The position numbers were made by a program, and so were the translations under genes. A model generated the notes under the pieces. The model was given only the letters and a program-made list of their open reading frames with translations. It was not told the DNA's origin and did not search any database. 50,640 nt of DNA from Desulfohalobiaceae bacterium (GTDB lineage Bacteria > Desulfobacterota > Desulfovibrionia > Desulfovibrionales > Desulfothermaceae), in contig JALWFY010000057.1 of assembly GCA_027013815.1 (NCBI GenBank), forward strand, positions 1 through 50,640, given 5' to 3'. This document shows positions 3,797 through 30,839 of this stretch, piece after piece (position 1 is the first letter of the stretch; each line of letters opens with the position of its first letter).

Positions 3797-3797
3797 A

Positions 3798-4199
3798 CTA
3801 TCTTGCTATCTTGTCTATCAATTCTTTTACTTTACTTAAATGACCATTTTGAGAAGGAATAAACATTAGTCCACATTTTTTCACATTAAGGAGTGTCAAT
3901 ACCTCATATGAGATAGGCCTCGTATAAACTACTCTACATTTTAAATCTTGAATCCAGAATCTATCTTCAGGATTCAATAATTCAGTGTCATATAACCTTC
4001 CATTCTCTGTAATATCCCTATCGTGGAAGTCTGTTACATACTTAAAACTAAGCCCTCCCTCACTTATATCTATTACCTCTCCTACTATTAATTCACCATG
4101 GTATTTAAAAGAAGAAAAAATCCTTTTTTTAGCCATATACCTAGGATATGCCCTTCTCTCTATAATACCCTGTCTTTCCAATAGTTCTGCAGATAACAT
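3798..4199 (-). CDS. PilZ-domain protein
   Basis: A 133-aa single-domain protein. It has the PilZ cyclic-di-GMP-binding signatures: an RxxxR-type motif (ERRAYPRY, residues 14-21) and the D-x-S-x-x-G motif (DISEGGLSF, about residues 43-51). Its position inside the exopolysaccharide operon suggests c-di-GMP control of polymer synthesis or export after translation; that role is inferred. The start ATG is preceded by a purine-rich GGGGAAGGG site. It overlaps nothing, lying 21 bases from the upstream deacetylase stop and one base from the downstream glycosyltransferase. Confidence 0.85.
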   Translation of the reverse strand: MLSAELLERQGIIERRAYPRYMAKKRIFSSFKYHGELIVGEVIDISEGGLSFKYVTDFHDRDITENGRLYDTELLNPEDRFWIQDLKCRVVYTRPISYEVLTLLNVKKCGLMFIPSQNGHLSKVKELIDKIAR

Positions 4200-4220
4200 A
4201 AGCCCTTCCCCCTCTGTAAT

Positions 4221-5084
4221 TCAAACACTCTGACTTTTAAGAAAATCTATACATGAGATAAAATCTACATCTTTTCTATCTGAAAAATATTGGCATACAT
4301 TCTTTAACCTGGGAAATGTCCTACTTAGATTGAGATAATGCCTTACCCTATGATTAAGACTTATAGACCTTATCCTTGGTTGACCTGGATCAATCTCCCA
4401 TGGATGCATATAAAATAGATACCACCTATTTTGCTTTAAGATATATTCAATACCTTTTATAAAAAAATAAACAGGCAGAAGCCTAAAATAGGCCCCTCCA
4501 CCCAAGGGCAACACAATTCTTTTTATATGCAAATTAAAGATTGGAATTTCATATAATCCTGCCTCTAGCTCCAACACCCCATTTATGTCTCTTTTTGCCC
4601 TAACATCTAAATTCCCATACCTTGGATTTAGTTTAAATGTATTATAGCTTGAATCATATGTATATCCCTCTTTTGCAAGTTGTTCCACTAATGTTCTATT
4701 TATTGAGAAATTAGGGGCCCTGAATCCAAAAATCTTATCCCCAATAGTATCTTCTAACAACCTCTTACTATCTTTTATCTCTTTCACAATTTGTTTATAA
4801 TCAAGATCACTACACATATTGTGCCAATAGCCATGGGAAGCTATTTCATGCCCCATTGAATGAATTCTTCTTATTAACTGTGGTACCTTATTGGCCACCC
4901 ACCCAAGCACAAAAAAAGTTGCTCTTATGTCAAAGGATTCAAATAATTCCAAGAGGCGTGAGACATTTTTTTCTAATCTAAACTCAAAATTATCCCATTT
5001 ATCCTGTGGACATGCAACCCTTAAGTTCTCTACCTGAAACCAATCCTCAACGTCAACTGTAAATAAAAAAAATTTTCTGTGCAT
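4221..5084 (-). CDS. XrtA-associated polysaccharide deacetylase (DUF3473)
   Basis: About 287 aa, with a NodB-type deacetylase fold. The catalytic/metal motif TVDVEDWF is near the N-terminus, the metal histidines are in SHGYWHN, and FRAPNFS supplies the conserved Arg-Ala-Pro strand. The C-terminal part (FYMHPWEIDPGQPR) is typical of the deacetylases in PEP-CTERM loci (TIGR03006/DUF3473). It probably removes N-acetyl groups from the exopolysaccharide. The frame is open back to a TTG at 5105 inside the exosortase gene. I chose the ATG at 5084 because a GAGGG site lies upstream of it and the homologous region starts there. Confidence 0.88.
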   Translation of the reverse strand: MHRKFFLFTVDVEDWFQVENLRVACPQDKWDNFEFRLEKNVSRLLELFESFDIRATFFVLGWVANKVPQLIRRIHSMGHEIASHGYWHNMCSDLDYKQIVKEIKDSKRLLEDTIGDKIFGFRAPNFSINRTLVEQLAKEGYTYDSSYNTFKLNPRYGNLDVRAKRDINGVLELEAGLYEIPIFNLHIKRIVLPLGGGAYFRLLPVYFFIKGIEYILKQNRWYLFYMHPWEIDPGQPRIRSISLNHRVRHYLNLSRTFPRLKNVCQYFSDRKDVDFISCIDFLKSQSV

Positions 5085-5091
5085 ATAAATA

Positions 5092-5937
5092 TCACGCCCT
5101 CTCAAGTAAACGCTGAATCAAAAGCAAGAGCAAAAATCCTGCAATAAACACCAGCCAACCAGAGAACTCATGGATAAAACCCTCTGCCATTTGTTTGCCA
5201 AAATTTTCAGATAATATGCCAGTAATGGTGAGCCTTATAACGTTTCCCACAACAGCTATAGGTATAGCACAAAAAAACAAAACAATCTTTCTCCCTCTTG
5301 TTAAATTTGAGATATATGCCAGGGCAGCACTCAAGGCCATTAAGGTAATTAGGGAGCGAAGGCCTGAACACGCCTCAACTACTTGAAGGGTAATATTGGG
5401 AAGGGTTATTACATTTCCTTCTCTCAAAACAACAAGCCCAAGCATCTTCATAATATGAGTGGAAATACTAGATGCAAATAGGGATAAGGGCAAAGATAAT
5501 TTATTCCATATTATGGCAGGAAGAGGTATCATAAATATAAGATAACATATGGGAAATAGGACTATTCTACTAACTTCAACACCAAATAGGAATAATACAC
5601 TCCCAAATATCACTATTAACATGGATATCCCTTGGACTAGATCCAAAGAAGCTATCCATGATAGAATAAAAAGACCTAGGCCCATTATGGTAACTAAAAG
5701 GCCCATGTTTGATGGGGTTGGAGAAATATTTTTTAACTGCTCTTTTTTAGTATAGATCAAATACAAAGAGATAAAGGGAATAAAAAAACCATGGGAATAG
5801 TTTTGATCTACTTCCCAACTCTCAATTAATTTTAAAATAACCGGATAATATAAAAACAAAAAAATAAAAACCAGCCCAACTAAGGCTAGATTTTTAAGGG
5901 TTAGATAAGATAAAACATCCTTTGATCTAAAATCCAT
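5092..5937 (-). CDS. xrtA: Exosortase A
   Basis: A 281-aa polytopic inner-membrane protein with about eight hydrophobic segments. The three catalytic residues of exosortases are visible: Cys190 in EACSGLRS, Arg235 in GNVIRL, and His256 in IHEFSGW. By analogy to sortases and archaeosortases it cleaves PEP-CTERM proteins near the PEP motif and transfers them to another carrier. The 306-aa protein at 612-1532 is its only intact substrate in the window. The gene has an AGGA ribosome site close to the ATG and lies 12 bases after epsI. EpsI is encoded separately here, not fused. Confidence 0.95.
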   Translation of the reverse strand: MDFRSKDVLSYLTLKNLALVGLVFIFLFLYYPVILKLIESWEVDQNYSHGFFIPFISLYLIYTKKEQLKNISPTPSNMGLLVTIMGLGLFILSWIASLDLVQGISMLIVIFGSVLFLFGVEVSRIVLFPICYLIFMIPLPAIIWNKLSLPLSLFASSISTHIMKMLGLVVLREGNVITLPNITLQVVEACSGLRSLITLMALSAALAYISNLTRGRKIVLFFCAIPIAVVGNVIRLTITGILSENFGKQMAEGFIHEFSGWLVFIAGFLLLLLIQRLLERA

Positions 5938-5949
5938 GTGGTCCTGTAA

Positions 5950-6588
5950 TCAAGAGGGTAAAATATTATACAAAATCCCTATTACCTTTGCACAAAATCC
6001 CTGTATATCTTTTTGTGTTATATTATCAGATAGTCCTATTATCCTCACAAAGGCACCATCTGTCCTTCTTTTAAAAATAGAGTCTATTACCCTATATATC
6101 CTCTCTTTATACTCTGAATCAATAACCCTTCCCCTGCACTGATACCAATATATGGCATTCAAGGTCTTAGGTCCATTTTTTACTACAAGCTTATTTACAT
6201 CCACATACCTTCCATTTGATAGTTTTATTGGCAAAGATACTATATTGTATATATCCCACCCTGATCCAGGCATACAATTTAGCGGTGAATGATATGTCTT
6301 TATTCTATCCACATAAGAAAAATAGCTAATATACACATCAAGCAGTTTTCCGTCTCTTGATTTATATTTTCTCCATACATAATCATCTACGCCAAGTATT
6401 TTTATCACTTTGGGATCCATATCTTCATTATATACATCTTCCCATGTCCCTATCTTTTTAGGAAAGCTCTGCTCAAGGGGTTTATCTAAAGGAACAGCCT
6501 TCACTCTGCTAAAAAAATTAATAGCACCTAAACACAATAAAAATACAATGCTAAGGATAATGACCCTATAAAAAAAACTTTTATCCAT
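5950..6588 (-). CDS. epsI: EpsI family protein (DUF3485)
   Basis: A 212-aa protein with one N-terminal membrane anchor (residues about 7-26) and a periplasmic domain. It carries the EpsI-family pattern: a PLxxFPxxIGxW-like segment (SFPKKIGTWEDV) followed by SPLNCMPGSGW. EpsI is found beside, or fused to, exosortases and was first linked to methanolan synthesis in Methylobacillus. It probably assists exosortase or polymer processing outside the inner membrane. The ATG has an AGGA site one base away from ideal spacing. It lies three bases from the upstream barrel gene stop, so translation is coupled. Confidence 0.88.
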   Translation of the reverse strand: MDKSFFYRVIILSIVFLLCLGAINFFSRVKAVPLDKPLEQSFPKKIGTWEDVYNEDMDPKVIKILGVDDYVWRKYKSRDGKLLDVYISYFSYVDRIKTYHSPLNCMPGSGWDIYNIVSLPIKLSNGRYVDVNKLVVKNGPKTLNAIYWYQCRGRVIDSEYKERIYRVIDSIFKRRTDGAFVRIIGLSDNITQKDIQGFCAKVIGILYNILPS

Positions 6589-6591
6589 GTC

Positions 6592-7902
6592 CTATTTAAC
6601 CAACTTAGTTGTATTGTATAGAATAATAGAGAAAAATACCCTATGGTCTTTATAGTCATTTACATCTATATTAGAATCAAGCCATCTATAATCATATGAT
6701 ATAGAGATGTTCATCCATTTTGTGACCTTATATGTCAGTGCTTCATTGAAGGTTATTATATTGTCCTTTCTATCTGGATCTACATCTGTATACTTATTAT
6801 ACCTATAATCTACATAGGATGAATTGGATAAATGCCTGGTAAAATCATATATAAATGACAATCTCCCACCATGATATATGGTAAAACCAAGATTTTCTGA
6901 ACCAAAATAGGTCTCATCATACCCGCTTGTATATGTAAAACTTATGCTACCCTTTTTTATCCTCCACTTTTTATTAAAATCCACATCTAAATTAATCCCT
7001 GTTTCATCCCTACCCCTTTCTTTGTCCTGTTTATAAAAACCTGTGTTAATAGAAATACTCATATCTTTGGAAAATCTATATGCCATACCAAATGATGGTG
7101 CGTATATTTGATAGTCCTCTGTATCTCCAGAATAGTCCATATATGTGTGAGAATATGCTATATTTACATTAAAATGTTTTGTAATATCCTTGGTAAGTCT
7201 TAAATCCCCTTTAAGTTCATCAAAATCATCAGATCCCCCATAAAAATCTCCTTTGATATAGGAGGTATCAAGACTGAGTATCATGTGTGGCCCTATTTCT
7301 ATACTTATCCCTGCAACAGGATTATAACGAGTGGCCTCTTGTATATCTTTATCCTCTTCCCAATTTCTGTAGTGATTATATCCAATATACAGAGAATCTC
7401 TTTTACCAAATTGATAATTTAATCTCATCCCTCCAGAATAATCAGAATGGTAGGCCCTCTTTTTCCTAATGGTATATTCACTGGGGGTATAGACAGTTGA
7501 GGAGGTGGTAGGTCCAGTCACACTATATAGATCCTGGGTCATAGTAAATAAATTGTGCATATTAAAAGTCAAGTTTCTGTAAATCTTATACATATAATCC
7601 AAGCTAACATCATGAGCAACATAATTATATTCTTTATGATCAGTATAAGTATATATGGAAGGGGAATATTTTAAATTAGCCTCCCAATACTTTGATGTAA
7701 GATCAAGCCCAACAGATGGAGTTATTATATTTACCCAATCTGACTGCTCATTATCACGGGTCAAATTCAAATTGCTGTCATAAGATTCACTTAACTTCAG
7801 TGAATATACTAAATCTACATTGACCTGGGCATAGGACTTGACACAAAATATAAGGCCAATAAACAGAACAATCAACCACTGTAGTATGGTCCTTTTTACC
7901 AT
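6592..7902 (-). CDS. Outer-membrane beta-barrel protein of the XrtA locus
   Basis: About 436 aa. A signal peptide ends near KSYAQ, followed by many alternating amphipathic strands rich in Y, S, D and N, and a C-terminal aromatic-ending strand (FFSIILYN). This fits an outer-membrane barrel of the PEP-CTERM-associated type (TIGR03016 or BBP2-like). It may help the exopolysaccharide cross or stay on the outer membrane. The start was moved from an upstream ATG (7917) to the ATG at 7902, because GGGAG lies eight bases before the latter. The exact family name is less sure than the barrel nature. Confidence 0.75.
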   Translation of the reverse strand: MVKRTILQWLIVLFIGLIFCVKSYAQVNVDLVYSLKLSESYDSNLNLTRDNEQSDWVNIITPSVGLDLTSKYWEANLKYSPSIYTYTDHKEYNYVAHDVSLDYMYKIYRNLTFNMHNLFTMTQDLYSVTGPTTSSTVYTPSEYTIRKKRAYHSDYSGGMRLNYQFGKRDSLYIGYNHYRNWEEDKDIQEATRYNPVAGISIEIGPHMILSLDTSYIKGDFYGGSDDFDELKGDLRLTKDITKHFNVNIAYSHTYMDYSGDTEDYQIYAPSFGMAYRFSKDMSISINTGFYKQDKERGRDETGINLDVDFNKKWRIKKGSISFTYTSGYDETYFGSENLGFTIYHGGRLSFIYDFTRHLSNSSYVDYRYNKYTDVDPDRKDNIITFNEALTYKVTKWMNISISYDYRWLDSNIDVNDYKDHRVFFSIILYNTTKLVK

Positions 7903-7923
7903 ATTATAAACTCCCATGTTATC

Positions 7924-8496
7924 TTATTTAACAATCACTGTATCGTCTCTTTGTATAAAATAATTCTCTTCTGGATGTTTACCATTTATAATGTCCTTAT
8001 AGCTGATTTTATACCTAATCTCTTTTCCATTTCTATATCTAAGCAAGATAATATTGTCTTTATTTGCCCATTCTGTAAATCCACCTGCAAGTGCAATTGC
8101 CTGTAATATTGTAAGGTCTTTGGTGAGGTCATATTCTCCAACTTTATTTACCTCTCCTACCATATAGAACTTACTGTTTTCTGTATCTACAATAACAGTT
8201 ACAAATGGGCTCGTTATAAACTCTTTCAGCTTTTTTTCTATAACCTTTTTTAATTGTATAGGGGTGAGCCCTTCGGCCTTTATGTCGTCCAACAAAGGAA
8301 GGGATATCCTGCCATCTGTCCTTACCTTAACAACCCTAGTGAGGTCCTTTTCTTTCCACACATTGATTTCTAACACATCACCTTTACCTATTCTATAATA
8401 ACCACCATTACTAGAAGCATCTCCTGCATATACAGAGGTTATGCCCAATAAAACAAAAAATAGAGATATAATAAAAAATCTTGTTACCTTAACCAT
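7924..8496 (-). CDS. Polysaccharide export protein (Wza/EpsA type, TIGR03027-like)
   Basis: About 190 aa. It has a signal peptide (MVKVTRFFIISLFF to VYAG), then a Poly_export domain starting YRIGKGDVLEINVWKE, and a SLBB-like domain (FYMVGEVNKVGEYDL, then ILQAIALAGGFTEWANKD). These proteins form or gate the outer-membrane channel for exopolysaccharide. No lipobox cysteine is seen, unlike E. coli Wza, which fits the short XrtA-type subfamily. The start was set at the ATG 8496 because a perfect GGAGG site lies five bases before it. A TTG at 8523 extends the frame but has no such site. Confidence 0.9.
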   Translation of the reverse strand: MVKVTRFFIISLFFVLLGITSVYAGDASSNGGYYRIGKGDVLEINVWKEKDLTRVVKVRTDGRISLPLLDDIKAEGLTPIQLKKVIEKKLKEFITSPFVTVIVDTENSKFYMVGEVNKVGEYDLTKDLTILQAIALAGGFTEWANKDNIILLRYRNGKEIRYKISYKDIINGKHPEENYFIQRDDTVIVK

Positions 8497-8543
8497 AAAA
8501 CCCTCCAATATAGATTTCTTCAATTATTTGATATTACGGGCAA

Positions 8544-9953
8544 TCACCTAGCCCCTTCACCAGTAAAAACCGTCTTTATTGTCTTAAGTACTATATAAAT
8601 ATCAAAAAATATAGTCATATTTTTTACATAAAACAAATCATATTCTAATTTTTTTAATGCATCTTCTTCAGATGCCCCGTATGGATAATTGACTTGTGCC
8701 CAACCAGTGATTCCAGGTTTTAGACAATGTCTCTCACCATAATATGGAATTTTTGCCTTTAATTGTTCAACAAATTCAGGTCGCTCTGGCCTTGGTCCAA
8801 CAAAACTCATATCCCCCTTAATAACATTCCAAAATTGAGGTATCTCGTCCAATCTAAATCTTCTCAAAAATTTACCAATAGAAGTTACCCTGGGATCATC
8901 TTTCTGAGCCCATTTCACCCCGTCCTTTTCTGCGTCCTGTCTCATGGTCCGAAACTTGAACATCTTATACGGGTTCTCCCACTGTCCTACCCTGATTTGA
9001 GTAAAAAAAATAGGACCTGGGGAAGTTAGTTTGATAAGCAGAGATATAATAAAAAATATTGGGGATAAGATTATTAATCCAATTAAAGAAAAAAATATAT
9101 CAAAAGTTCTTTTTACCAATAATTGTAGTTTATATCTAGCAAATCCCTGAGAAAAAATTAACCAACTTGGTACCACTTGTGTAACCAATACCTTACCACT
9201 GAGATTCTCATAAAATGTAACCCCATCAACAATATATACCCCCCTGGTCTTACATTCCAACAAGAGTTTTATAGGTGAGACCCCTCTCCTCTCTTCAAGG
9301 GCAACAACTATTTTCCGTATATTATTTTCTAAGGCACACCTACATAATTTATCCACATCCCTCTTTATAATATCCTGTTTAAGACCCGAACCCTCAAAAA
9401 AATCATCTTTTAAAGAAGAATGAGGGGGTACAAATATATATTTTATATTATACCCAGAATCAAGATTATCTTGAATTTCATTTATAATATGTAGTCCAAG
9501 CCCACCATCCATTATCATGATTATATTCTCATTCCAGATACCAGATTGACATAAATATTGATATAATATTCTCCATGAGACCAAAAATAATAGGAGAATG
9601 GCAAGTCCAATAAAAAAAATCCCCTGTTCTAAAATAAGTGGTGGATACAGGAAATAAACCGCTGAGAGCACTATACACGTAATCCCTATTGCTTGTATTA
9701 TCTTTAAAAAAAGTTCTAACAAACTAACCCTATATTTAAATTCATATAAAGAACAATAATACAGAGTAATCTGCAATATTAAAGTAATTACACCAATCCT
9801 AATCCATATATTAAGTCTCATATTATGGACAGGGACATGACCATTGTAAAAGAGATAAATTCCTAGATATACGCTAAAAAATACAAATAGACTCTCTAAA
9901 AAAAAGAATACAAGATTTCTAATTGGGTAATATTTATTAAAAAATTTAAGCAT
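8544..9953 (-). CDS. Exopolysaccharide priming sugar-phosphate transferase (TIGR03013-like)
   Basis: A 469-aa polyprenol-phosphate sugar-1-phosphate transferase. Four N-terminal transmembrane helices are followed by a CoA-binding-like central domain. The C-terminal catalytic domain (about 275-469) opens with KRTFDIFFSLIGLI and includes SPGPIFFTQIRVG, FKFRTM, RRFRLDEIPQFWNVIKGDMSFVGPRP split over its usual motifs, and GITGWAQVNY. It starts exopolysaccharide repeat-unit synthesis by loading a sugar phosphate onto undecaprenyl phosphate. It is the variant typical of XrtA loci. The ribosome site is weak. It is third in the operon, between the kinase and the export protein. Confidence 0.92.
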   Translation of the reverse strand: MLKFFNKYYPIRNLVFFFLESLFVFFSVYLGIYLFYNGHVPVHNMRLNIWIRIGVITLILQITLYYCSLYEFKYRVSLLELFLKIIQAIGITCIVLSAVYFLYPPLILEQGIFFIGLAILLLFLVSWRILYQYLCQSGIWNENIIMIMDGGLGLHIINEIQDNLDSGYNIKYIFVPPHSSLKDDFFEGSGLKQDIIKRDVDKLCRCALENNIRKIVVALEERRGVSPIKLLLECKTRGVYIVDGVTFYENLSGKVLVTQVVPSWLIFSQGFARYKLQLLVKRTFDIFFSLIGLIILSPIFFIISLLIKLTSPGPIFFTQIRVGQWENPYKMFKFRTMRQDAEKDGVKWAQKDDPRVTSIGKFLRRFRLDEIPQFWNVIKGDMSFVGPRPERPEFVEQLKAKIPYYGERHCLKPGITGWAQVNYPYGASEEDALKKLEYDLFYVKNMTIFFDIYIVLKTIKTVFTGEGAR

Positions 9954-9979
9954 AGATAAGATATTTAACTAAATAAAAT

Positions 9980-10762
9980 TTAATATGAATATCTATATGA
10001 ATCATATTTCCTATAATACTTTTTTACCTTCTCATATCCATTTAATATTATACCTTTAAATTTGTTCTTATCAAACTTTTCTATGGTATTCTTTACTACA
10101 TCTCTGGGAGTATTGGCCCTTCTAACAACTAAATATATAGCATCTACTTCCCTTGCCAACACAAAGGTCTCAGGTGTGAGTTCAATTGGTGAAGTATCAA
10201 ATATAACATATCTATCTGGATATCTATCCCTTAATTCTCGGACCAGGGCCTTCATCTTTCTAGAAGACAAAAGCTCTGAAGGAATGGCAGAGTCCTCACC
10301 AGCTGGTAATATAGTGAGTTTTTCTATTGAAGTCTTACACAAAAGTCTTTCCAATGGCTCTCCTGTGAGTAAATGTGTGCTAAGCCCTTTTTTTGCATAC
10401 TCCAATCCAAATATCCTATGTATAGTTGGCCTTCTAAGATCTGCATCTACAAGTAAGACATATTCATCAAGACCCTTTGCTATAGTAACTGCCAGATTCG
10501 CTGATACAAAAGATTTGCCCTCGCCTTGAAGACAACTAGTTATCAGTATGGTCTTAGGGGGCTCGCCTTCTAATGGCCTTATAATCCTAGACCTTAAGAA
10601 TCTAAACTCTTCAGCCAATACAGAACCAGGCTTATGGATTACTACCAACTCTTTTGTAAATTCTGGGACCTGAAAATTTTCTCTGTAATCTTTCTCACTA
10701 CCCTTTTCTATGACTGTCCTCTCTTTCTCTGCTTTTTCCAATGCATCATATAATCTTCCCAT
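9980..10762 (-). CDS. XrtA-associated tyrosine autokinase (CpsD/CapB type)
   Basis: A 260-aa bacterial tyrosine kinase. It begins with MGRLYDALEKAEKER, a signature opening of the TIGR03018 family. It has Walker A (SCLQGEGKS, residues 76-84), Walker A' (VDADLRRP, 105-112) and Walker B (YVIFDTSP). The C-terminal tail holds a tyrosine cluster (KKYYRKYDSYRYSY) that would be the autophosphorylation site. It works with the chain-length protein encoded just upstream (stop to start 14 bases) to set polymer length and export. An AGAGAG site precedes the ATG. Confidence 0.93.
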   Translation of the reverse strand: MGRLYDALEKAEKERTVIEKGSEKDYRENFQVPEFTKELVVIHKPGSVLAEEFRFLRSRIIRPLEGEPPKTILITSCLQGEGKSFVSANLAVTIAKGLDEYVLLVDADLRRPTIHRIFGLEYAKKGLSTHLLTGEPLERLLCKTSIEKLTILPAGEDSAIPSELLSSRKMKALVRELRDRYPDRYVIFDTSPIELTPETFVLAREVDAIYLVVRRANTPRDVVKNTIEKFDKNKFKGIILNGYEKVKKYYRKYDSYRYSY

Positions 10763-10776
10763 AGCTATCTCTCTAT

Positions 10777-12231
10777 TTATTTTTCTTCTGTCTCAAATGG
10801 CAGACAAACTATTACTTTTGCATTTAAATAACTCTCTATTTCCTCTGGGGTATAAAATGCTGGGTCCAAACTCTCCTTTAAAAATGCAAGCCCTAGTCCC
10901 AGTCCTAGTCCCAATATTATAGAGATAAAACCAACTTTTTTTACATCTGGAGAACTTGGGACCAGAGATGGTACTGCAGGATCAATTACCCTAAATTGCT
11001 CACCCTTTTGACGCTTTTCCAATTCCTCAGCCATCTCTGCATTCAATTTTTTTGCCAACAATGCCTGATATCTCTTGCTCAAAACATTATATTCCTTTTG
11101 CATCTTCTCTAGCTGCAGTGCTATTTTAGGAGTAATCTCTATCCTTTTCTTATAGACTGCTATTTGGGCCTCAACCTGCTTTATCCTGTTTTGATAATTC
11201 GTTATCTGGTTTCTAATGGTTTGTAATTGGTAATACAAAGGGGTCTCCTCCTTAAATACCCTTCCTTTGTGTTTCTTTAATTGTTTTTTTAGTCTCTCGA
11301 TCTTTTTCTCCAAGGCCACCACGTCTGGATGTCTTGGAGTATAAATAGATCTAAGTTCCCTCAGCCTCATCTCCAACTGATCAATTGACTCAAAATTATT
11401 CTCTTTTTGAGATATATTAGAGGTCATAGGATTTTGAGATTTTAATTGTTCTCTTAAAATAGCTTCCTGCTGTTTTGCAATGGTGAGCAAATTTGCCAGA
11501 TTATTATATTCATCTTTTAATTGATTTAATATGGTGATGTTCGACTGTAGTTCATCTGGCAATGCCCCCATGTGCTCTTTTTTAAATCCTTCTAGTTCCC
11601 TTCCCTTTCTCTCCATCTCGTCTTTTAACCTAGCAACCTCTGACTCCAAAAATTTTGTAGTACCCATGGCCATTTCTTCTCGGATCTTTAAATTCTCATC
11701 AATAAATTGAGATGCCAAGGCATTTGCAACATCTGCTGCTATTTTTGGATCATACCATTCAAAAGATATCTCAAATGCCCTTTTCCCCCCCTTTAAAGAT
11801 ACCTGTATCTTTTTCCTGACAAAATTGACAAGTTGCATATCATCACCAGGGACTTTCTTGTTCCCAGTAGAACCCAGTCCTAACTTTTCAAGAATATTAT
11901 CCTTTATTTTTTCAAACCGTCCCTTTTCCCTTGGGCTATTTAATTGAAACTCCTTTATTATCCTTTCTATATTAGTACGACTATATACTTGTTGAGATAT
12001 TGTATTTAATCTATTTTGCAGGCTTTCAGTTATAGTGGATTTTACATAAGAGCTTGGTATCCTTTGAGACTCAACTAGAATTAAAGTAGTTGATTTATAT
12101 GTCTTTGGAGTAACTAAGATATAGATTCCACCACATATTATAGACATTATAAAAGGAATAATTATCCACCACCTACGCCGTTTAACGATATCAAAATAGG
12201 GTTGAAGATCAATTTTTTGGATTTTAAACAT
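10777..12231 (-). CDS. XrtA-system chain-length determinant (Wzz/PCP family, TIGR03007-like)
   Basis: A 484-aa polysaccharide co-polymerase. It has an N-terminal Wzz domain with a membrane segment (about 22-43, after RRRWWIIIP) and a long periplasmic coiled-coil region (about 180-410, rich in E, K, L and Q). A conserved P-x-x-P segment (VIDPAVPSLVPSSP) precedes the second membrane segment near 435-455. It controls chain length and activates the neighbouring tyrosine kinase. As first gene of the ten-gene operon it is preceded by the sigma-54-like site at 12278-12293. An AGGAG lies 12 bases from the ATG. Confidence 0.93.
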   Translation of the reverse strand: MFKIQKIDLQPYFDIVKRRRWWIIIPFIMSIICGGIYILVTPKTYKSTTLILVESQRIPSSYVKSTITESLQNRLNTISQQVYSRTNIERIIKEFQLNSPREKGRFEKIKDNILEKLGLGSTGNKKVPGDDMQLVNFVRKKIQVSLKGGKRAFEISFEWYDPKIAADVANALASQFIDENLKIREEMAMGTTKFLESEVARLKDEMERKGRELEGFKKEHMGALPDELQSNITILNQLKDEYNNLANLLTIAKQQEAILREQLKSQNPMTSNISQKENNFESIDQLEMRLRELRSIYTPRHPDVVALEKKIERLKKQLKKHKGRVFKEETPLYYQLQTIRNQITNYQNRIKQVEAQIAVYKKRIEITPKIALQLEKMQKEYNVLSKRYQALLAKKLNAEMAEELEKRQKGEQFRVIDPAVPSLVPSSPDVKKVGFISIILGLGLGLGLAFLKESLDPAFYTPEEIESYLNAKVIVCLPFETEEK

Positions 12232-17971: not shown

Positions 17972-20017
17972 TTAACTTGGACCAGAAACTAAAAAGTTAT
18001 CTAGTTCTCTTCTAAGGGTCCTAACTCTTGTTTCAGATTTTGCATATCCAAACCTAAATAACATAATATGAGATTCATCTGCATCTAGATTTAATTCAAA
18101 AAGATTTTCATACTTGGGCCATATTGATTTTAACATCTCTTTATGTGTAGTCAAAAAACTATCCTTATCCCTTTTCCACCTCTCCCAAAATAGGGTAATA
18201 GCGGTCATGGGCTGAAAATAGAGCCCATTTTTTGTAATCTCAAGCCACACCCTTTGCATGGCCATGCCACCTTTTAAAAATGCACTCCTATCTGAGCCAT
18301 CCACAGTAATTAATCCAATACCAGAGGAAGAATTTATACCCTTTAGAGAATGATGGGCAATAAGTTTTCCAAGGCCTATTTTATTCATAAATTCCATAAC
18401 TGACCATGGCCGAGTAAGTTTTAAAAAGATCTCGCCAATTGTACCGGCTTCTAAATTTTTAATTGGAAGACCATCTCGTGTCTCATACATATGTCTATCA
18501 TTGAACCTAATCATTCTCATAAGGTGTTCGTGCAGGGGTCTAAACTCTACACGTATCCTGTCTACCTCATATATTAATTTGGCTATTTTTTTAATAATAG
18601 ACCTATTGGTTATGATCTTTAAACGAGCGCCAGGTATTTTTTGTATTTGCATATATAAGTTATCTATCTTTGATTTATCTATTTGTTTTTTAGTAAAAAA
18701 TTTTCTATTTGTGTGACGGACCCATATATAATCTACTAGATCATCTTTTTCACAATCCTTAGGTGAGGCAAAATCCATTATAGCCATTAGATCCTTGTCC
18801 TTGGGGTCAGGATGAAAATTTATAGCTGGGACTATATTAAACATAGTGGATGCTATCTTGATATTTTCTATAACAGCGCCACAGGATATAATTGAGGCAA
18901 TTTGATCTACATTAAAAAAGGATTCATCCCTTTTAGGATCTAAGTATAGATAAATATTATTTTCTCTAATAGCAAATTTCCACGGTTGGGCATTATCTCC
19001 TGAAGGGGCAAAGGTGCCGGCCTTTAATAAATATTCAATGATCTCTTTTGAAAAAGGATGTCCTTTTTCCCACACTGGAGGAGGTGGGGGAGTAATTCTC
19101 TCTAATGTATCTAATTTTAATATATAATTTTTAATAATATATTTTTTTATCCTCTGAAAAATGTTTCTATTTCCATTTCTAAGACACCCTTTAACAAATT
19201 TTTCCCTGTAAGGATCAAATTGATAATAAAAGGGAACTGGTCTCACTTTTCCCTTATTTAATAAAATCTTAACCACCTCAAAACCTGCCATAGCAGCACA
19301 TAGATTACACGCAATTATAGAAGAAGGCCCTTTTTTGGCTTCTAGATCCACTTGTTTTTTATCTATATATTTTATGTGCAATCCTTTAGGTGCTAGTCCC
19401 AAAGCAAAGTTTAGATATTTTTCCAATTCAGGCATACCAGTATATATGTCAAAATATTCATCAAAGGACATTCCCTTATTAGGGGAAAAAACAAGCACTC
19501 CAGTGCCAAACCCCAAGGGAGCAGCAGTAATAACATAAATCCCTTTTTCCCTAGCCTTATTAAAGACTAATCGTCTCATGTTAAACTCAAAAAAGTCCAA
19601 TCCATCCACTACTATATCTACTCCATCTAAGAATTCATCTAAATTTTCAGGAGAAATACCTCTGTCAAAGACCCTAATCTCTAAAAATGGATTCACATCA
19701 AGTGCCTCTTTTGCCATACAATGGACCTTGCCTTTCCCAAAATTAGAGACCTTGGCACCATACTGTCTATTTATATTTACCACATCAAATCTATCAAAAT
19801 CCGCTATATTGAATCTTCCTATCCCAAGTCTAGTTAATGTTATTAAGTGGAGCCCCCCAACTCCACCCATTCCAGGAATAGCTATCCTAGCTTTAGACAA
19901 AATCTCCATGTCTTCCTTGGACAAGATACCTATATTTCTAGAAAAAGCCTCGCTAATAAAGTCTGTTTTTGAATCTATGCCATGTTGTAATAACCTGTGT
20001 TTTATGTTCTCTAACAT
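17972..20017 (-). CDS. ThiF/E1-type adenylyltransferase fused to nitroreductase-like domain
   Basis: A 681-aa two-domain protein. Residues 40-285 are a ThiF/MoeB/HesA-type E1 domain: GMGGVGG at 49-55, the D-x-x-x-x-x-N-x-N-R-Q segment (FDVVNINRQY), VDGLDFF for the late aspartate, and one CxxC (CNLC, 237-240). A linker with five prolines (about 310-314) leads to a nitroreductase-like domain from about 325 (AGTFAPSGDNAQPWKF). The layout resembles mycobacterial Rv1355c (MoeY-like). The E1 half would activate a carboxylate with ATP and the second half would bind FMN. No thiS, moaD or thiazole genes are nearby, so a vitamin or molybdopterin role is unlikely. It is last in the FeeM unit. Substrate unknown. 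Confidence 0.85.
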   Translation of the reverse strand: MLENIKHRLLQHGIDSKTDFISEAFSRNIGILSKEDMEILSKARIAIPGMGGVGGLHLITLTRLGIGRFNIADFDRFDVVNINRQYGAKVSNFGKGKVHCMAKEALDVNPFLEIRVFDRGISPENLDEFLDGVDIVVDGLDFFEFNMRRLVFNKAREKGIYVITAAPLGFGTGVLVFSPNKGMSFDEYFDIYTGMPELEKYLNFALGLAPKGLHIKYIDKKQVDLEAKKGPSSIIACNLCAAMAGFEVVKILLNKGKVRPVPFYYQFDPYREKFVKGCLRNGNRNIFQRIKKYIIKNYILKLDTLERITPPPPPVWEKGHPFSKEIIEYLLKAGTFAPSGDNAQPWKFAIRENNIYLYLDPKRDESFFNVDQIASIISCGAVIENIKIASTMFNIVPAINFHPDPKDKDLMAIMDFASPKDCEKDDLVDYIWVRHTNRKFFTKKQIDKSKIDNLYMQIQKIPGARLKIITNRSIIKKIAKLIYEVDRIRVEFRPLHEHLMRMIRFNDRHMYETRDGLPIKNLEAGTIGEIFLKLTRPWSVMEFMNKIGLGKLIAHHSLKGINSSSGIGLITVDGSDRSAFLKGGMAMQRVWLEITKNGLYFQPMTAITLFWERWKRDKDSFLTTHKEMLKSIWPKYENLFELNLDADESHIMLFRFGYAKSETRVRTLRRELDNFLVSGPS

Positions 20018-20029
20018 ACCAACCTCTTC

Positions 20030-22270
20030 TTAATTCTTTTTTATAAGCAAAATACAGGGAAGTAGTATCAAGTCGCCTATAAGTGCAGTTAACATAATAA
20101 TTGATGTGAGCAGCCCAAAATCAAATGTAGGATGAAATTTACTAGTTACAAGCACCGCAAATCCAAAGAATAAAATTATAGATGAACTTACTATGGCCCT
20201 GCCCTTGGATTCCAATGTCATACGTATGGCTTCTTTAACATCCAGACCATCCTCACGCCTCATACGCAAATATTCAGACAAGAAATGAATTGTATCATCC
20301 ACTGCAATCCCTATTGCAACTGCTGATATCAATGCAGTGGCAGTATTCAAGGTAATTCCAATTAACCCCATAAATGCAAAGTTGAGTAGGATTGGAAATA
20401 TATTTGGGATAAGACTAATTAGACCTATGGAAAAAGATCTAAGGACCAAGATCATAATAATTGCTATAGTTATCCCAGCATATAACAAACTCTTGATTTG
20501 ACTCTTTACCAATGCATTTATGATTATAACCTGTTGAAGGGCCCTTCCAGTCACCCTTGCATATATATTGGATGGGGTGTGTTGCTTTAAAAACCTTTCT
20601 ATTTTGTCAATTATTTCCTTCTGCTTTGAAGATGAATGTTCTGAAAGCCTAAGAGAGATCCTTGTCTTGTCAAAAGATTCTGTAACCAGGTCATCAATGG
20701 TCTGAATATCGAATAATAATAAAAACTGAGATACCATATTTCTTGTGTCTGGTATTTTATACCACCTGGGATCTTCATCGTGAAAGGATTTATTCATTTC
20801 CTTTAAATAATCGTCTAGAGAAATCACTACATCTACACCAGGTATACCTTTAGAAAAATCTTCCACCTGTTCAATAAATTTTAATTTTTTTGGATCTTTA
20901 AAGCCATCTGGCAATGTCTTCAAATATACATCAAGGGATCCAGTACCTGACAGATTCTTTTCCACAAAAATTAGGTCCTTATATTCTCTAGTGGAAGGCA
21001 TAAAAAACTTGTTTAGGTCTGTCTCAACCTTAACCTTAGAAGCCCCCCAAAGGGAAATCCCTGAAATAAAAACGAACAACACCAATAACTTTAAATAATG
21101 ACGCTCTATAAATGCAAATGTCTTAAGCAACATCCTATTTATCAAATTCCCCTTAGATGAAAAATCTCTAAAGGACCATTTTGGTGGAGAAAATAATAAA
21201 ATTGGGGGGAGAAAAAAGAATGCATAAAAGAATTCAAACACCATCCCACAAGAGGCCATAACCGCAAAATCCTTAATTGGAGAGAGTTCGCTGGCATATA
21301 GGGAAAAAAAACCAATGGCAGTGGTAAGGGTGGTTAGAAAACAAGGAAATGTTATTCTTTTTAAAATCCAAGACATACTGTCCTTAACATCCATTGTATC
21401 TAGTAGATTCACATCTAAGTGTGAAAATATATGTACTGTATCTGATAGGGACATGGCCATGATAAGTGGCGGTACAATAGATGTTACATTGTGAAGTGCA
21501 ATACCTGTAAGCCCAAAAAGACCCATGGTAGACATCATACATGCGGATATGTTGATAAGTGCGAGAAGAACAAGATACGGCTTTCGAAAAAACGTCCATA
21601 TAACTATTAATACTAGCGCATAGGTAATGGGCACAAATACCTTTAAGTCCCTCTTCATGTATTGGCTTAAGGCAAAATCAGTTACAGTCCAACCCGCCAT
21701 ATGGAAGTTAAATACATTAGAATAACGATTTAATACCCCCTTTACCCTGCTTAAGAGTTTTTCCCTGTAATTGGGGTCTTTAGGTCTAATATATGCAAAA
21801 ACCACAATAGCAGTGGTCTTTCCATCTTTAGATATCAAGTTGTTTTTATATAAAGGATTAGAGATGGCCTCTTTTTCCAATTTCCTACATCCTTTCACTG
21901 TATTTGGTATTTCTTCTAAAAAATCCCTTGTTTCAAAATAATCCTTACCTCCCTTTATATCATCTACATTTGCAAGGCTAATTACATCTTTGGCCAGGGA
22001 TATATTTTCTAAATCATTTGTTATTTTCTTTAAAATCCTTAGTTTCCTAGGTGTAAAGAGGTCTTTGTCTTTAAATGCAATCACAAAAAATTCATCACTT
22101 CCAAATAGTTGTCTAAATTTATGATAAAATTTTGTTGCAGGATTATCCTTTAATTCAAAATAATCCACATTGTTTACTGTTTTTAGCTTTGGCAAAAATG
22201 AAGAAAAGAAAAAAAATACAAGGAGTGATATAAAAATAAATAATTTGGGGAACCTTATAGATATATCCAT
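20030..22270 (-). CDS. MMPL/RND-superfamily exporter (HAE3 type)
   Basis: A 746-aa inner-membrane protein with the two-fold repeat of RND/MMPL transporters. TM1 is at residues 11-26, followed by a large periplasmic loop. A five-helix bundle around 210-370 contains the segment SLSDTVHIFSHL. A second TM near 395 precedes the second loop. The second bundle (600-746) contains AVAIGIAVDDTIHFLSEY, the charged motif typical of HAE3/hopanoid-type exporters. Such pumps move lipids or hydrophobic molecules using proton force. Its partners here, a LolA-like carrier and a DUF1302 barrel, suggest export to the outer membrane. It starts 6 bases after the barrel gene stop and is followed 12 bases later by the ThiF fusion. 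Confidence 0.9.
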   Translation of the reverse strand: MDISIRFPKLFIFISLLVFFFFSSFLPKLKTVNNVDYFELKDNPATKFYHKFRQLFGSDEFFVIAFKDKDLFTPRKLRILKKITNDLENISLAKDVISLANVDDIKGGKDYFETRDFLEEIPNTVKGCRKLEKEAISNPLYKNNLISKDGKTTAIVVFAYIRPKDPNYREKLLSRVKGVLNRYSNVFNFHMAGWTVTDFALSQYMKRDLKVFVPITYALVLIVIWTFFRKPYLVLLALINISACMMSTMGLFGLTGIALHNVTSIVPPLIMAMSLSDTVHIFSHLDVNLLDTMDVKDSMSWILKRITFPCFLTTLTTAIGFFSLYASELSPIKDFAVMASCGMVFEFFYAFFFLPPILLFSPPKWSFRDFSSKGNLINRMLLKTFAFIERHYLKLLVLFVFISGISLWGASKVKVETDLNKFFMPSTREYKDLIFVEKNLSGTGSLDVYLKTLPDGFKDPKKLKFIEQVEDFSKGIPGVDVVISLDDYLKEMNKSFHDEDPRWYKIPDTRNMVSQFLLLFDIQTIDDLVTESFDKTRISLRLSEHSSSKQKEIIDKIERFLKQHTPSNIYARVTGRALQQVIIINALVKSQIKSLLYAGITIAIIMILVLRSFSIGLISLIPNIFPILLNFAFMGLIGITLNTATALISAVAIGIAVDDTIHFLSEYLRMRREDGLDVKEAIRMTLESKGRAIVSSSIILFFGFAVLVTSKFHPTFDFGLLTSIIMLTALIGDLILLPCILLIKKN

Positions 22271-22276
22271 AATAAC

Positions 22277-24148
22277 CTAAAAATAAAGTTTCACGACAAA
22301 ATAAACCTCATCTGCTAAATCATATTGTCCCATCAGCGTGTCCTTGTCTCCACCAAAACCTATAACACCAATCTCAAGATCAAGGTTGGATACTTTTTTA
22401 CAGACAAAATATGGATTTATGTAATATGAATAATCAGACAAAAAATAAGAATATTTAACACCAATCTTCCAATCTCCTTCCATAAACCCTTTAGATACCT
22501 CGGCTAACAAAGATATATTATCCTCTTTAAAATACAAAAGATCATCTTCATAATGAAATATGTGGTTGTGAGATAGCTCCACGTTTAGATATAGATCATT
22601 ATCTCCATTATAATCCATACCCAATACATACCACAACATTTGTTTGTGCACTGATACAAGGGATTGTGTCAAAAATCCATTCTTGTCAAAAAATGCTGCC
22701 TCTCCCCTAACACCAAATTCATCAAAGGTACCCTCAAACTCTATTCCATAAATATTCCTCCGTATATAAGAGGCCTCTATATTCCCATTTGTCATTTGGA
22801 TAAAAGGTAGCTGTTCTATTAAATTACTTCCTGAAAAATCCTCTTTTACCTTAATACCTTTAACAGGAAAACTCTTTATGTAAGGATTAGGATCAAAACC
22901 ATTTAAATAACTAATGGACATGTCAAAACTATCAGTGCTAAACCCAATCCTACCACCACCTTGAACATTTTCTAAAGACTTGGCAGGTATTCTTTTATCC
23001 ACCTGCAAATTATTAATATAATTTTTGAGATATGCAGGCAATTTATACTTATCAATAAAATAAGAGGAGCTATTTTTTAGTTGTTTAAATACTGCAAAAT
23101 TCCTATCAAAAAAATACACATCATTTGGTTCCACAAAAGGAATTACGACCCCTTCTAACCTAAAATTATTTTTAAAAAATTCTATATCTCCCATCCAGTT
23201 TGGGATCTTTCTCTCTTCATAAGGGGGTAATATAAATAGTCTAAGGTCTTGGGAATTCAGGTTGTCCACTGGACTGATCTGATCTGTTTTCCCCCATCTA
23301 ATAACCTGCTTACCAACCCTTATCCTAAATGGACCTTTATTTATTACCAAATAACCTTCATGTAATCCAAAATCTACATCCCTTTCATCCTTGGTATCTT
23401 CTATATATAAGAAATCCCAATCCCACGACATAATTCCATATGATCTTTTGGAAGGCGGTACCCATCCATGAGCTGATCCAGATAAATCATATTTTATTTT
23501 TGCCCTTATCTTTGTATTTATATACCTCTTGTCTTCAAATTTATTGTAGTTAAGTTGATTTGCTGCCCTATTTTCTATCTTCCCAGAAAATCTCATTTTT
23601 TTGAAAAAAGAATTGAAAATAGGATAGTTATTTTTAACATTACCTTGTTTTTGGGAGATAGGTTTTATATTTAATGTTTTTTCATTATCATGAGATCTGT
23701 CTAAAACCCAATTAGAAACTGAATGAAATTTATTTTTTTTATTATAAAAATCTATTACCAATCTATATTTATTTTTTCCATCGATTAGAAAAAATGTCTT
23801 GGGAACCATCTTTTCCCTGTTATAAGATATTATTATGCCCTTTTTAAAAGAAATATCTTCTATAAAATTCTTTTTAATTTTATTTACCTTTTTTTTAACC
23901 AAACTATTTGTCTCAACATTATCATTCCAAACAATGAATATATGACCATCCCCAGAGTCTATATCTTGAGAACGCTTGCCCATAACACAAAAGACTAGCC
24001 TAAAAAAATCCTTATGATCTGCCCATCTTATGTTGTAAATAGAAGTATTACTAAAAGCACTGGATATATTTAAATGGAATAAAATAAAGCAAAGGCATAA
24101 GATAAATACCTTACCAATTTTCCAGGCTTCTCTTTGTAAATACATCAT
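22277..24148 (-). CDS. DUF1302-type outer-membrane protein with N-terminal AMIN-like domain
   Basis: About 623 aa. After a signal peptide (KIGKVFILCLCFILFHLN, ending near SSAFS), residues about 35-150 form a beta-rich segment like an AMIN domain (YNIRWADHKDFFRLVF, FFLIDGKNKYRLVIDF). A barrel then carries the DUF1302 signature (RIRVGKQVIRWGKTDQISP and NLNSQDLRLFILPPYEERK). It ends with aromatic strands (YDLADEVYFVVKLYF). DUF1302 proteins accompany MMPL pumps in several Proteobacteria. The start is ambiguous (GTG 24160, ATG 24148 or ATG 24145), and any choice overlaps the preceding gene by 35-50 bases, implying translational coupling. Confidence 0.75.
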   Translation of the reverse strand: MMYLQREAWKIGKVFILCLCFILFHLNISSAFSNTSIYNIRWADHKDFFRLVFCVMGKRSQDIDSGDGHIFIVWNDNVETNSLVKKKVNKIKKNFIEDISFKKGIIISYNREKMVPKTFFLIDGKNKYRLVIDFYNKKNKFHSVSNWVLDRSHDNEKTLNIKPISQKQGNVKNNYPIFNSFFKKMRFSGKIENRAANQLNYNKFEDKRYINTKIRAKIKYDLSGSAHGWVPPSKRSYGIMSWDWDFLYIEDTKDERDVDFGLHEGYLVINKGPFRIRVGKQVIRWGKTDQISPVDNLNSQDLRLFILPPYEERKIPNWMGDIEFFKNNFRLEGVVIPFVEPNDVYFFDRNFAVFKQLKNSSSYFIDKYKLPAYLKNYINNLQVDKRIPAKSLENVQGGGRIGFSTDSFDMSISYLNGFDPNPYIKSFPVKGIKVKEDFSGSNLIEQLPFIQMTNGNIEASYIRRNIYGIEFEGTFDEFGVRGEAAFFDKNGFLTQSLVSVHKQMLWYVLGMDYNGDNDLYLNVELSHNHIFHYEDDLLYFKEDNISLLAEVSKGFMEGDWKIGVKYSYFLSDYSYYINPYFVCKKVSNLDLEIGVIGFGGDKDTLMGQYDLADEVYFVVKLYF

Positions 24149-24881
24149 CTGTAATCTCACTTATGTTGTATTTTACATTTGCAACCTCAAGGTCTGTCTC
24201 GTGCTTTCTCTTTAGGTTTTTCATCACTATTTTTAGAGGTGTCCATATACCCTGTATTTTCTCAAGCTTTTTTATCAACAAGACTTTAAACAATTTATTG
24301 TGCTTATTATAAAATTCTGTTTTAATGCTCAAAAAAATACCTTTTGGTATATAACTTCTAATCAAAGAATATTCTGTCCTAGTGCCTGGTTTTGGGGTAG
24401 ACTCCAATATAATACAATTATATTTTCCAATCTTGGTACTTCCCACTATCTTATGAACAAATTCATCTACCCTCCTCCTCTCCATATCTTCATATGTAAA
24501 ATCACTATTTACAAATGAACTTCCCTTTTGAGAGGACACAATCCTCCTAACCCGCCTAAGTGCAGGTAAATATAGATACTGTATAGTCTTTCCCTCTTTG
24601 TCTTCTATAGACAGAAATCCTGTACCTGCAATGTCCTCTGGCTCCAGAAATCTAATAAAATTTTTTCTAATTTTATCCTTTTCCATGTATAGGTTTAAAA
24701 ATTTACGTTTTCTTATATTCCCATTTTTATCTATTAAAAACATGTACATAATTGCCTTTGAATTATCTCCAATATATCTATCATGGACTTTTTTGGCGAG
24801 TTCATATCCATTTAATGCATAACAGGGCACTGTAAATAAAAAAATAAGAAAACTCACTATAGAAAAATTAGTTATCTTCAT
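24111..24881 (-). CDS. LolA-like outer-membrane lipoprotein-sorting protein
   Basis: A 256-aa protein with a cleavable signal peptide (MKITNFSIVSFLIFLFTVPCYA). Its body is of the LolA-like type (PF17131), with conserved YLYLPALRRVRRI and GSSFVNSDFTYEDM. These proteins share the LolA lipid-binding fold and usually occur with MMPL pumps and DUF1302/DUF1329 barrels. Here it probably ferries an acylated product through the periplasm. The start has an AGGAGG ribosome site. It is second in the unit, 24 bases after the FeeM gene, and overlaps the barrel gene. Confidence 0.88.
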   Translation of the reverse strand: MKITNFSIVSFLIFLFTVPCYALNGYELAKKVHDRYIGDNSKAIMYMFLIDKNGNIRKRKFLNLYMEKDKIRKNFIRFLEPEDIAGTGFLSIEDKEGKTIQYLYLPALRRVRRIVSSQKGSSFVNSDFTYEDMERRRVDEFVHKIVGSTKIGKYNCIILESTPKPGTRTEYSLIRSYIPKGIFLSIKTEFYNKHNKLFKVLLIKKLEKIQGIWTPLKIVMKNLKRKHETDLEVANVKYNISEITDDVFTKRSLENW

Positions 24882-24905
24882 TACAAGTTACCTCCTATTT
24901 TTACA

Positions 24906-25808
24906 TCATAATCTTAGTCCATTATAATGTTTTTTAAGCATTTCCTTTTGTGCTGGGGTCAAATTATCTCTAATAGATGGTTCTTTCTCGAGAAAATAAC
25001 TCACAATATCAGCAGTAATCCTCTTTGGTTTGGGTTTTAAACTCTTAAGGTCTGAATTAAATATTGAGGTTGGCTTTACTGGCTTACTACCTGTCATGAT
25101 GTAGAAATAATAATCTAAGGGGGTCTCCATCTCTAAGGTCTTAAAGATTTCCATCATTTCATCAACAGACTCCTCTACCCTCCCCCTCAAGGCCACTGCT
25201 GGAGCGCCTACTTTTGGATACATCTTTTCATCCCCTAATTTTTCAAATGGAAACAAGTTCATGTAATACCTCACATGTCGTGGATTTATAGCAATACATA
25301 TATCATCGACCCCTTTATATAAAGAATACCAAAACATCACCTGTACTTGATACAGAAAAATATTTTTCCACCTATATTCCCTTGGGGTTGCCAATGAAGA
25401 CAATTCTGCCACCTGCCTTCCTTGGAGACGAAGTTCATCTAACTCCTCCTTATAAATAAGGTCCATGGGTAAACCGAACTCTTTAGTATCAAATATCTCA
25501 GTCAAAGTAGAAATTACTGTTAAATAAGATTTGGCAATTATATGTACAGTAGTTGGTAAAAGAGAAAATATAGAAAAATAAAGACCATGGTCCTTGGGGT
25601 CTTTTATATATTTTTTCTCCATATAAATCTTATATACTAAGGCAAATGCTTGTTCTAATTCCTCCTTGGTCTCTGCAAACTTGATAGCTGGTTTATCTAG
25701 GTCATCTAGGCCTAAACGTTTTAGGCCAGAATATTTAATCCTTAAGGTCCTACGTCTCTCCCTGCCTTTATTTTCATCTAATCTTATGGCCTGTTCTTTA
25801 ATAGGCAT
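24906..25808 (-). CDS. FeeM-type N-acyl amino acid synthase (LuxI-like GNAT fold)
   Basis: A 300-aa acyltransferase. The core (about 45-235) follows the FeeM pattern: LVYKIYMEKKYI, SLLPTTVHIIAKS, a TLTEIFDTKEFGLPMD strand, LRLQGRQVAELSSLA, CIAINPRHVRYYMNLFPFEKLG, and GAPAVALR. FeeM enzymes join an acyl chain from acyl-ACP to an amino acid. Relatives occur in exosortase loci (TIGR03694). The spacing is not that of homoserine-lactone synthases. A strong AAGGAG site precedes the ATG. It is first in a five-gene unit with exporter genes, so its product is probably exported. A basic N-terminal tail of about 30 residues and a lysine/proline-rich C-terminus are extra. Confidence 0.88.
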   Translation of the reverse strand: MPIKEQAIRLDENKGRERRRTLRIKYSGLKRLGLDDLDKPAIKFAETKEELEQAFALVYKIYMEKKYIKDPKDHGLYFSIFSLLPTTVHIIAKSYLTVISTLTEIFDTKEFGLPMDLIYKEELDELRLQGRQVAELSSLATPREYRWKNIFLYQVQVMFWYSLYKGVDDICIAINPRHVRYYMNLFPFEKLGDEKMYPKVGAPAVALRGRVEESVDEMMEIFKTLEMETPLDYYFYIMTGSKPVKPTSIFNSDLKSLKPKPKRITADIVSYFLEKEPSIRDNLTPAQKEMLKKHYNGLRL

Positions 25809-26056: not shown

Positions 26057-26536
26057 TTATTCAAAAAATACACTAGGATGCAATGGAGTCTTATTCTTAA
26101 AAAGTATTTCTAGCTCCTTTTTATCCTTTTTTGATATTTTCAGAGAACATATGGGCATAGGTCCTTTAAAATTTCCTCCATAAAATCTAAGGCTATTATC
26201 AATAAAAGAACTGAGCACAAACCCAGCCTTTACCCTTATGGGTAACATCTCTTTTTCCCACTTAACCTCAACTACCCTAAAAAAGTCCCCATCATTTACC
26301 CCCTTTACCATATTGCCTGTCTTTAATAAGGTCTCAATCAAGGTATGGGGCAAGATCCCACAGGCCTTACATAAATATTCAAAAAAGGAAGGATAAAGCA
26401 CTAAATAATAATTATTATCCAGTTTACACCCTATTGATTTTCCAGGGATATTTAAAATTTCTTGCATAATATTATATCTTTTTCCCAGTTCCCTTTGAAC
26501 AATATTTAAAATCTTTGAATAATCTATAATCGTCAT
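26057..26536 (-). CDS. Hypothetical protein, 159 aa
   Basis: I do not recognise this protein. It is soluble, with no signal or membrane segment. It has a hydrophobic core segment YYLVLYPSFFEYLCKACGILP near residue 43 and a glycine-rich stretch RFYGGNFKGPMP near 117. A good AGGAG ribosome site lies nine bases before the ATG, which supports real translation. It stands alone, 248 bases upstream of the FeeM gene on the same strand and divergent from the zinc-ribbon gene. Whether it belongs to the FeeM unit is unclear. Confidence 0.6.
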   Translation of the reverse strand: MTIIDYSKILNIVQRELGKRYNIMQEILNIPGKSIGCKLDNNYYLVLYPSFFEYLCKACGILPHTLIETLLKTGNMVKGVNDGDFFRVVEVKWEKEMLPIRVKAGFVLSSFIDNSLRFYGGNFKGPMPICSLKISKKDKKELEILFKNKTPLHPSVFFE

Positions 26537-29853: not shown

Positions 29854-29869
29854 TCTTTAGGAGGGAAAA

Positions 29870-30838: not shown

Positions 30839-30839
30839 T

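Follow-up and report, generated by a model that had tools for sequence, protein, structure and literature searches.

What is made, and where is it sent, by five adjoining genes that pair an N-acyl amino acid synthase with a ThiF-nitroreductase fusion and a three-part transporter next to an exosortase locus? Here, we report an analysis of these genes in a window of 50,640 nucleotides (the whole stretch of DNA studied; contig JALWFY010000057.1, assembly GCA_027013815.1, Desulfohalobiaceae bacterium). The window carries aprA, sat, qmoC, and ahbC/ahbD, which identify the host as a sulfate reducer and, going by sulfate-reducer physiology, a presumably strict anaerobe. Within it, ahbC, the porphobilinogen synthase gene, and ahbD (28672-31901) represent the alternative haem pathway of sulfate reducers. 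We consider it likely that the five genes encode an exosortase-associated N-acyl amino acid pathway, probably oxazolone forming, with a dedicated exporter.

According to the open reading frame list, the unit consists of five frames, feeM being the first transcribed:

24906..25808, minus strand: FeeM-type N-acyl amino acid synthase, 300 aa (Pfam FeeM, 1e-41)
24111..24881, minus strand: LolA-like periplasmic carrier, 256 aa, with a signal-like hydrophobic N-terminal stretch (Pfam LolA_like, 1.6e-58; DUF1329, 6e-9)
22277..24160, minus strand: DUF1302 outer-membrane barrel, 627 aa, N terminus signal-like (Pfam DUF1302, 1.4e-10)
20030..22270, minus strand: MMPL/HAE3-type RND inner-membrane transporter, 746 aa (Pfam MMPL, 7.9e-28; TIGR00921 HAE3, 1e-66, below its cut-off)
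17972..20017, minus strand: ThiF-nitroreductase fusion, 681 aa (Pfam ThiF, 1.5e-41, and Nitroreductase, 7e-7)

All five proteins were assigned to Pfam families above cut-off. The frame coordinates confirmed the packing described in the initial annotation (one strand, gaps of 24 bases or less, one overlap), with intergenic gaps of 24, 6, and 12 bp and a 50-bp overlap between the LolA-like and DUF1302 genes. Genes flanking the unit run in the opposite direction, except for one frame upstream of feeM:

26057..26536, minus strand: 159-aa protein, no Pfam or NCBIfam match

This protein, perhaps outside the unit, is also encoded upstream of feeM in Desulfothermus okinawensis, a member of the Desulfovibrionales and the nearest hit for the host (L015:2544-3026; 57% identity). 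A promoter scan returned fewer sites than were found in shuffled sequences.

The synthase scored 142.8 bits against a Pfam FeeM cut-off of 27 and matched the FeeM structure (PDB 2g0b) by sequence at 1e-8. Its E135 lines up with FeeM Glu95, the catalytic residue, and is present in 47/47 homologs; mutation of the equivalent Glu in the FeeM relative Nas354 abolished activity (PMC4897644). A structure model built from five sequences (pLDDT 52, low confidence), used for fold ranking alone and as supporting evidence, placed FeeM (2g0b) first in a fold search (2e-10, probability 1.00). The family match and the catalytic Glu thus support the predicted N-acyl amino acid synthase activity, and the FeeM fold appears to be retained. 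The initial annotation had remarked on the missing acyl carrier protein gene; none is required in the window, since the genome carries one elsewhere and TyzA and TrzA use acyl-CoA as a substrate (PMC10404671, PMC12856293). Tandem FeeM paralogs, two per cluster, occur in loci L074, L075, L076, L079, and L080, and the two copies may differ in the amino acid or in the chain length that they accept; the window has one copy.

The ThiF-nitroreductase protein comprises an adenylating cyclase (residues ~1-300) and a flavin-dependent oxidase (residues ~310-681). It matched NCBIfam PRK14851 at 915 bits, with further matches to PRK14852 and Rv1355c-family models. FeeM and the ThiF-nitroreductase correspond to two parts of PRK14852 (“hypothetical protein,” 989 aa), which is a single fusion, whereas here they are two genes with the exporter genes in between. 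An AlphaFold model (pLDDT 81) matched the folds of ThiF (1zud, 7e-13) and Acg (2ymv, 8e-13), and its matches include AclA, a ThiF-fold protein whose structure was determined with substrate. Residues D141, R489, and Q602, identical in 15/15 aligned sequences, correspond to TrzS D217, R540, and Q651, variants of which are impaired (PMC12856293). These positions were mapped via a homolog on a Mycolicibacterium fortuitum plasmid; in this homolog, the spacing between the final arginine of DRIR and the glutamine of GVQP is 111 (651 minus 540), and the D-to-R spacing is 324 versus 323. The ThiF domain here has a CxxC pair, which the M. fortuitum homolog lacks. The homolog itself is an unannotated open frame (L139:3906-6068), with its N-terminal part seemingly in another frame.

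Although the initial annotation knew of no described pathway with this gene set, its three biosynthetic domains are those of a published oxazolone pathway (PMC10404671, PMC12856293), and an undescribed pathway was therefore ruled out for the enzymes (see also PMC12479983). TyzACB, consisting of a synthase, a ThiF protein, and a flavin-dependent oxidase, makes N-acyl oxazolones in Mycobacterium tuberculosis (PMC10404671), and TrzAS (Rv1356c/Rv1355c) of Mycobacterium synthesizes N-acyl tryptazolones (PMC12856293). OxzAB of Pseudoalteromonas rubra gives acyl-oxazolones, as cited in PMC10404671, and a synthase, ThiF, and nitroreductase trio has been assigned to stieleriacines and related dehydrotyrosines (PMC12479983). 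The window has the features of this pathway, namely, a synthase with the catalytic Glu, a nearby ThiF-oxidase fusion, and the three residues required in TrzS. Two functions suggested at the outset, activation of the carboxylate by the E1-like domain and modification of the product by the flavin domain, are supported as predictions by these retained positions and by homology to TyzACB and TrzAS.

The closest comparison is TrzAS, which likewise pairs an acyltransferase gene with a ThiF-oxidase fusion and whose D217/R540/Q651 positions are kept here, but it belongs to aerobic Actinomycetota, and its described cluster lacks LolA, DUF1302, and MMPL genes. TyzACB shares the acyltransferase, ThiF, and flavin oxidase, and an MMPL gene (mmpL9) adjoins the tyz genes; its ThiF and oxidase are separate proteins, transport was not demonstrated, and exosortase is not mentioned (PMC10404671). 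OxzAB, compared here by its description in a citing paper and not by sequence, resembles the window in its acyltransferase and ThiF-nitroreductase fusion and differs in that no exporter is described there.

Desaturation by the Tyz and Trz enzymes uses O2, and O2 limitation leads to accumulation of the saturated ring-closed intermediate (PMC12856293). For a sulfate reducer, three options are left: electrons go to a different acceptor, the enzyme works while the cell is briefly exposed to oxygen, or the pathway ends with the saturated ring. The pathway in such hosts raises the question of how an O2-using oxidase family works without O2.

Conservation was assessed in 61 related genomes, using Fisher tests without correction for shared ancestry, whose P values therefore overstate the surprise. 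The ThiF-nitroreductase was found in 14/61 genomes, FeeM (above cut-off) in 21/61, and DUF1302 (E ≤ 1e-4; one match per genome) in 19/61. FeeM was present in all 14 genomes with the ThiF-nitroreductase (P = 5e-9, phylogeny ignored) and in 16/19 with DUF1302 (P = 7e-8, phylogeny ignored). The grouping is not due to chance. In 13/13 judgeable relatives of the order, judgeable meaning that the contig is long enough (G000, G306, G307, G309, G313, G315, G316, G321, G324, G327, G328, G333, and G342), FeeM (one or two copies), the LolA-like protein, DUF1302, and MMPL are encoded within ~10 kb, and the ThiF-nitroreductase joins them in 10/13. It is missing from G306, G309, G328, and G339 (at a contig end), which keep the other four genes. 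Of the five-gene unit first described, the four-gene part therefore stands and the fixed membership of the fifth gene does not: the conserved core is FeeM plus exporter, with the ThiF-nitroreductase as an optional add-on. When co-occurrence and neighborhood were followed across families, as had been proposed, the genes were found to stay together.

The MMPL proteins of these clusters form one clade, 35 to 50% identical in the phylum. Those from clusters without the ThiF-nitroreductase (43 to 50% identical to the protein in the window) are interleaved in this clade with those from clusters that have it, which suggests that the fusion was lost or gained more than once. In other orders of the phylum, the arrangement LolA-DUF1302-(MMPL)-ThiF recurs (L040, L043, L046, L047, L050, L053, and L054), and ThiF and the oxidase are often encoded separately there. 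Among 18 ThiF loci sampled from Pseudomonadota, about half have a recognizable acyltransferase, oxidase, or pump neighbor, and the remaining ThiF genes lie among different neighbors. The whole transport trio occurs in one (L132), where ThiF-LolA-DUF1302-MMPL lies by an exosortase-associated acyltransferase-group protein and an exosortase A-associated hydrolase. Pseudomonadota loci L125-L130, L134, L135, and L137 encode ThiF proteins 42 to 47% identical to the ThiF domain here, with no recognized synthase or oxidase neighbor within ~9 kb.

Since FeeM and the exporter are kept together in G306, G309, G328, and G339 without the fusion, the transported molecule could be an N-acyl amino acid. It is quite possible that the exported end product is such a plain N-acyl amino acid or an open N-acyl dehydro-amino acid (resembling thalassotalic acid or stieleriacine), the oxazolone being an intermediate or not accumulating. 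Producers of stieleriacines and of thalassotalic and kyonggic acids carry synthase, ThiF, and nitroreductase genes, with no oxazolones seen (PMC12479983), and oxazolones are easily hydrolyzed (PMC12856293). The fused TrzS nevertheless proceeds to the oxazolone in vitro (PMC12856293), and both the cyclase and the oxidase positions that it needs are kept here, which argues for the oxazolone-forming pathway.

The route to the outer membrane proposed for pump, carrier, and barrel held up as a prediction, the trio accompanying FeeM in 13/13 judgeable relatives. A precedent is AmeABCD of Castellaniella defragrans, in which DUF1302, LolA-superfamily, and HAE3 pump proteins act together and protect against monoterpenes (PMC6394551). 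Both systems encode a DUF1302 outer-membrane protein, a LolA-superfamily periplasmic protein, and an HAE3/MMPL pump together (the HAE3 hit here being below the strict cut-off), but the one in the window is linked to lipid synthesis rather than monoterpene breakdown; no gene like ameC (a second periplasmic protein, COG4447) was found in the unit. In Pseudomonas putida, growth on Tween 20 depends on a DUF1302/DUF1329 pair, which also has a phenotypic link to an efflux transporter (PMC10866462). Sets of this type have thus been implicated in the transport of hydrophobic substances. With the monoterpene protection and Tween 20 growth in mind, the trio could be read as importing or expelling hydrophobic compounds of foreign origin and as merely co-located with biosynthetic genes. 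This seems quite unlikely to us, as FeeM and the trio remain together even where the ThiF-nitroreductase is absent, DUF1302 is nearly confined to FeeM genomes, and the cluster MMPLs form their own clade. The trio is not specific to FeeM by itself: trio-only loci exist, so the cargo cannot be told from the trio alone. Their MMPLs are only 22% identical to the one in the window, consistent with the same type of machine carrying other cargo and with a branch here that goes with FeeM. Because synthesis genes are co-encoded, export would be expected rather than uptake, and a dedicated exporter for the cluster lipid is a well-supported prediction. By comparison, the core also lends weight to the proposal that the position of mmpL9 beside tyz is no accident.

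The placement beside an exosortase locus, noted in the initial annotation, was borne out by the following features:

612..1532, minus strand: PEP-CTERM protein, candidate exosortase substrate (PF07589 at 633-704, above cut-off)
2570..12231, minus strand: XrtA-type exopolysaccharide locus
5092..5937, minus strand: exosortase, EpsH family, XrtA-like, 281 aa, 12 kb from the unit
13826-16231, plus strand: PrsT TPR protein, between the exopolysaccharide locus and the unit
16243-17874, plus strand: XrtA-associated ATPase, between the exopolysaccharide locus and the unit

The exopolysaccharide locus encodes glycosyltransferases (TIGR03087 and TIGR03013), a deacetylase, the exosortase, an export protein, a tyrosine kinase, and a chain-length determinant. 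The exosortase is followed by a separate 212-aa frame (together at 5092-6588) that matches XrtD in its C-terminal part, so the exosortase and its EpsI-like domain are encoded by two genes here.

Exosortase was found in 14/14 genomes with the ThiF-nitroreductase and 19/19 with DUF1302, versus 26/61 overall, and all 18 cluster-bearing genomes carry it. The cluster lies 12 to 44 kb from the nearest exosortase gene in 12/13 judgeable genomes (in G328, the two sit on separate contigs). For G313, G324, and G333, each assembled as a single contig (~3.8 Mb), the gap is 14, 37, and 33 kb, respectively. Genes for PrsT, for PEP-CTERM proteins, and for XrtA-type polysaccharide synthesis are found repeatedly near the clusters. 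In 13 loci, FeeM is accompanied or replaced by members of a protein group distantly related to it; two of these were scanned and are TIGR03694 exosortase-associated acyltransferases. A link between synthase and exosortase was published in 2011 by Craig, Cherry, and Brady, who, as cited in PMC4897644 and PMC7293339, found N-acyl amino acid synthase genes beside PEP-CTERM/exosortase genes; those citing papers do not mention the exporter core or the ThiF-oxidase fusion.

FeeM is related to acyl-homoserine lactone synthases, and trzAS lies beside c-di-GMP genes, with a signaling role proposed (PMC12856293), so the product could be read as a diffusible quorum signal and not a surface component. We think this unlikely given the periplasmic carrier and barrel, the exopolysaccharide and PEP-CTERM neighbors, and the lack of a LuxR-type regulator among annotated recurrent neighbors.

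In the scheme that we infer for the exosortase-associated pathway (product, order of steps, direction of transport, and role), FeeM would acylate the amino group of a probably aromatic amino acid, with acyl-ACP (or acyl-CoA) as the source of the fatty acyl chain. The ThiF domain would adenylate the carboxylate, allowing the amide oxygen to close a 5(4H)-oxazolone (azlactone) ring, and the flavin domain would take two hydrogens from beside the ring, the acceptor usually being other than O2 because the host is a sulfate reducer. The MMPL pump would then take up the lipid at the inner membrane, the LolA-like protein would ferry it across the periplasm, and the DUF1302 barrel would insert it into the outer membrane or pass it to the far side. 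As part of the exopolysaccharide/PEP-CTERM surface layer, it might then serve as a surfactant-like lipid or a signal. We know of no such product from any member of the Desulfovibrionales, which counts against the scheme, as does the dependence of the characterized oxidases on O2. The mostly intracellular location of tryptazolones in mycobacteria (PMC12856293) counts against export.

A very improbable extension is that an exported acyl-azlactone serves as a reactive acyl donor, its ring being opened by amines of the exopolysaccharide or of exosortase-sorted PEP-CTERM proteins, so that anaerobes would lipid-tag a surface layer without O2; if true, this would account for the joint occurrence of synthase, exporter, and exosortase. 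In a literature search that covered the 2011 synthase/exosortase paper via citing papers only, no description of the set including the exporter was found. The FeeM-exporter core, its persistence without the ThiF-nitroreductase, and its exosortase tie in sulfate reducers appear to be new. This core is a candidate transport route, accessible to knockout, for N-acyl oxazolones or exosortase-linked N-acyl amino acids, whose role and fate the papers cited here leave open.

Two genomes that lack the full trio near the biosynthetic genes also count against the scheme. G318 has the FeeM-ThiF-oxidase domains and no DUF1302 in the genome. In Nitratidesulfovibrio vulgaris, no MMPL, LolA, or DUF1302 gene was seen within 42 kb around the FeeM-ThiF-oxidase gene of plasmid pDEVAL01 (L138:19092-22061), which encodes one 989-aa protein and is immediately flanked by XrtA exopolysaccharide genes on one side and PEP-CTERM genes on the other. 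N. vulgaris is a genetic model, and a single plasmid-encoded protein combines all three enzyme domains within its exopolysaccharide locus.
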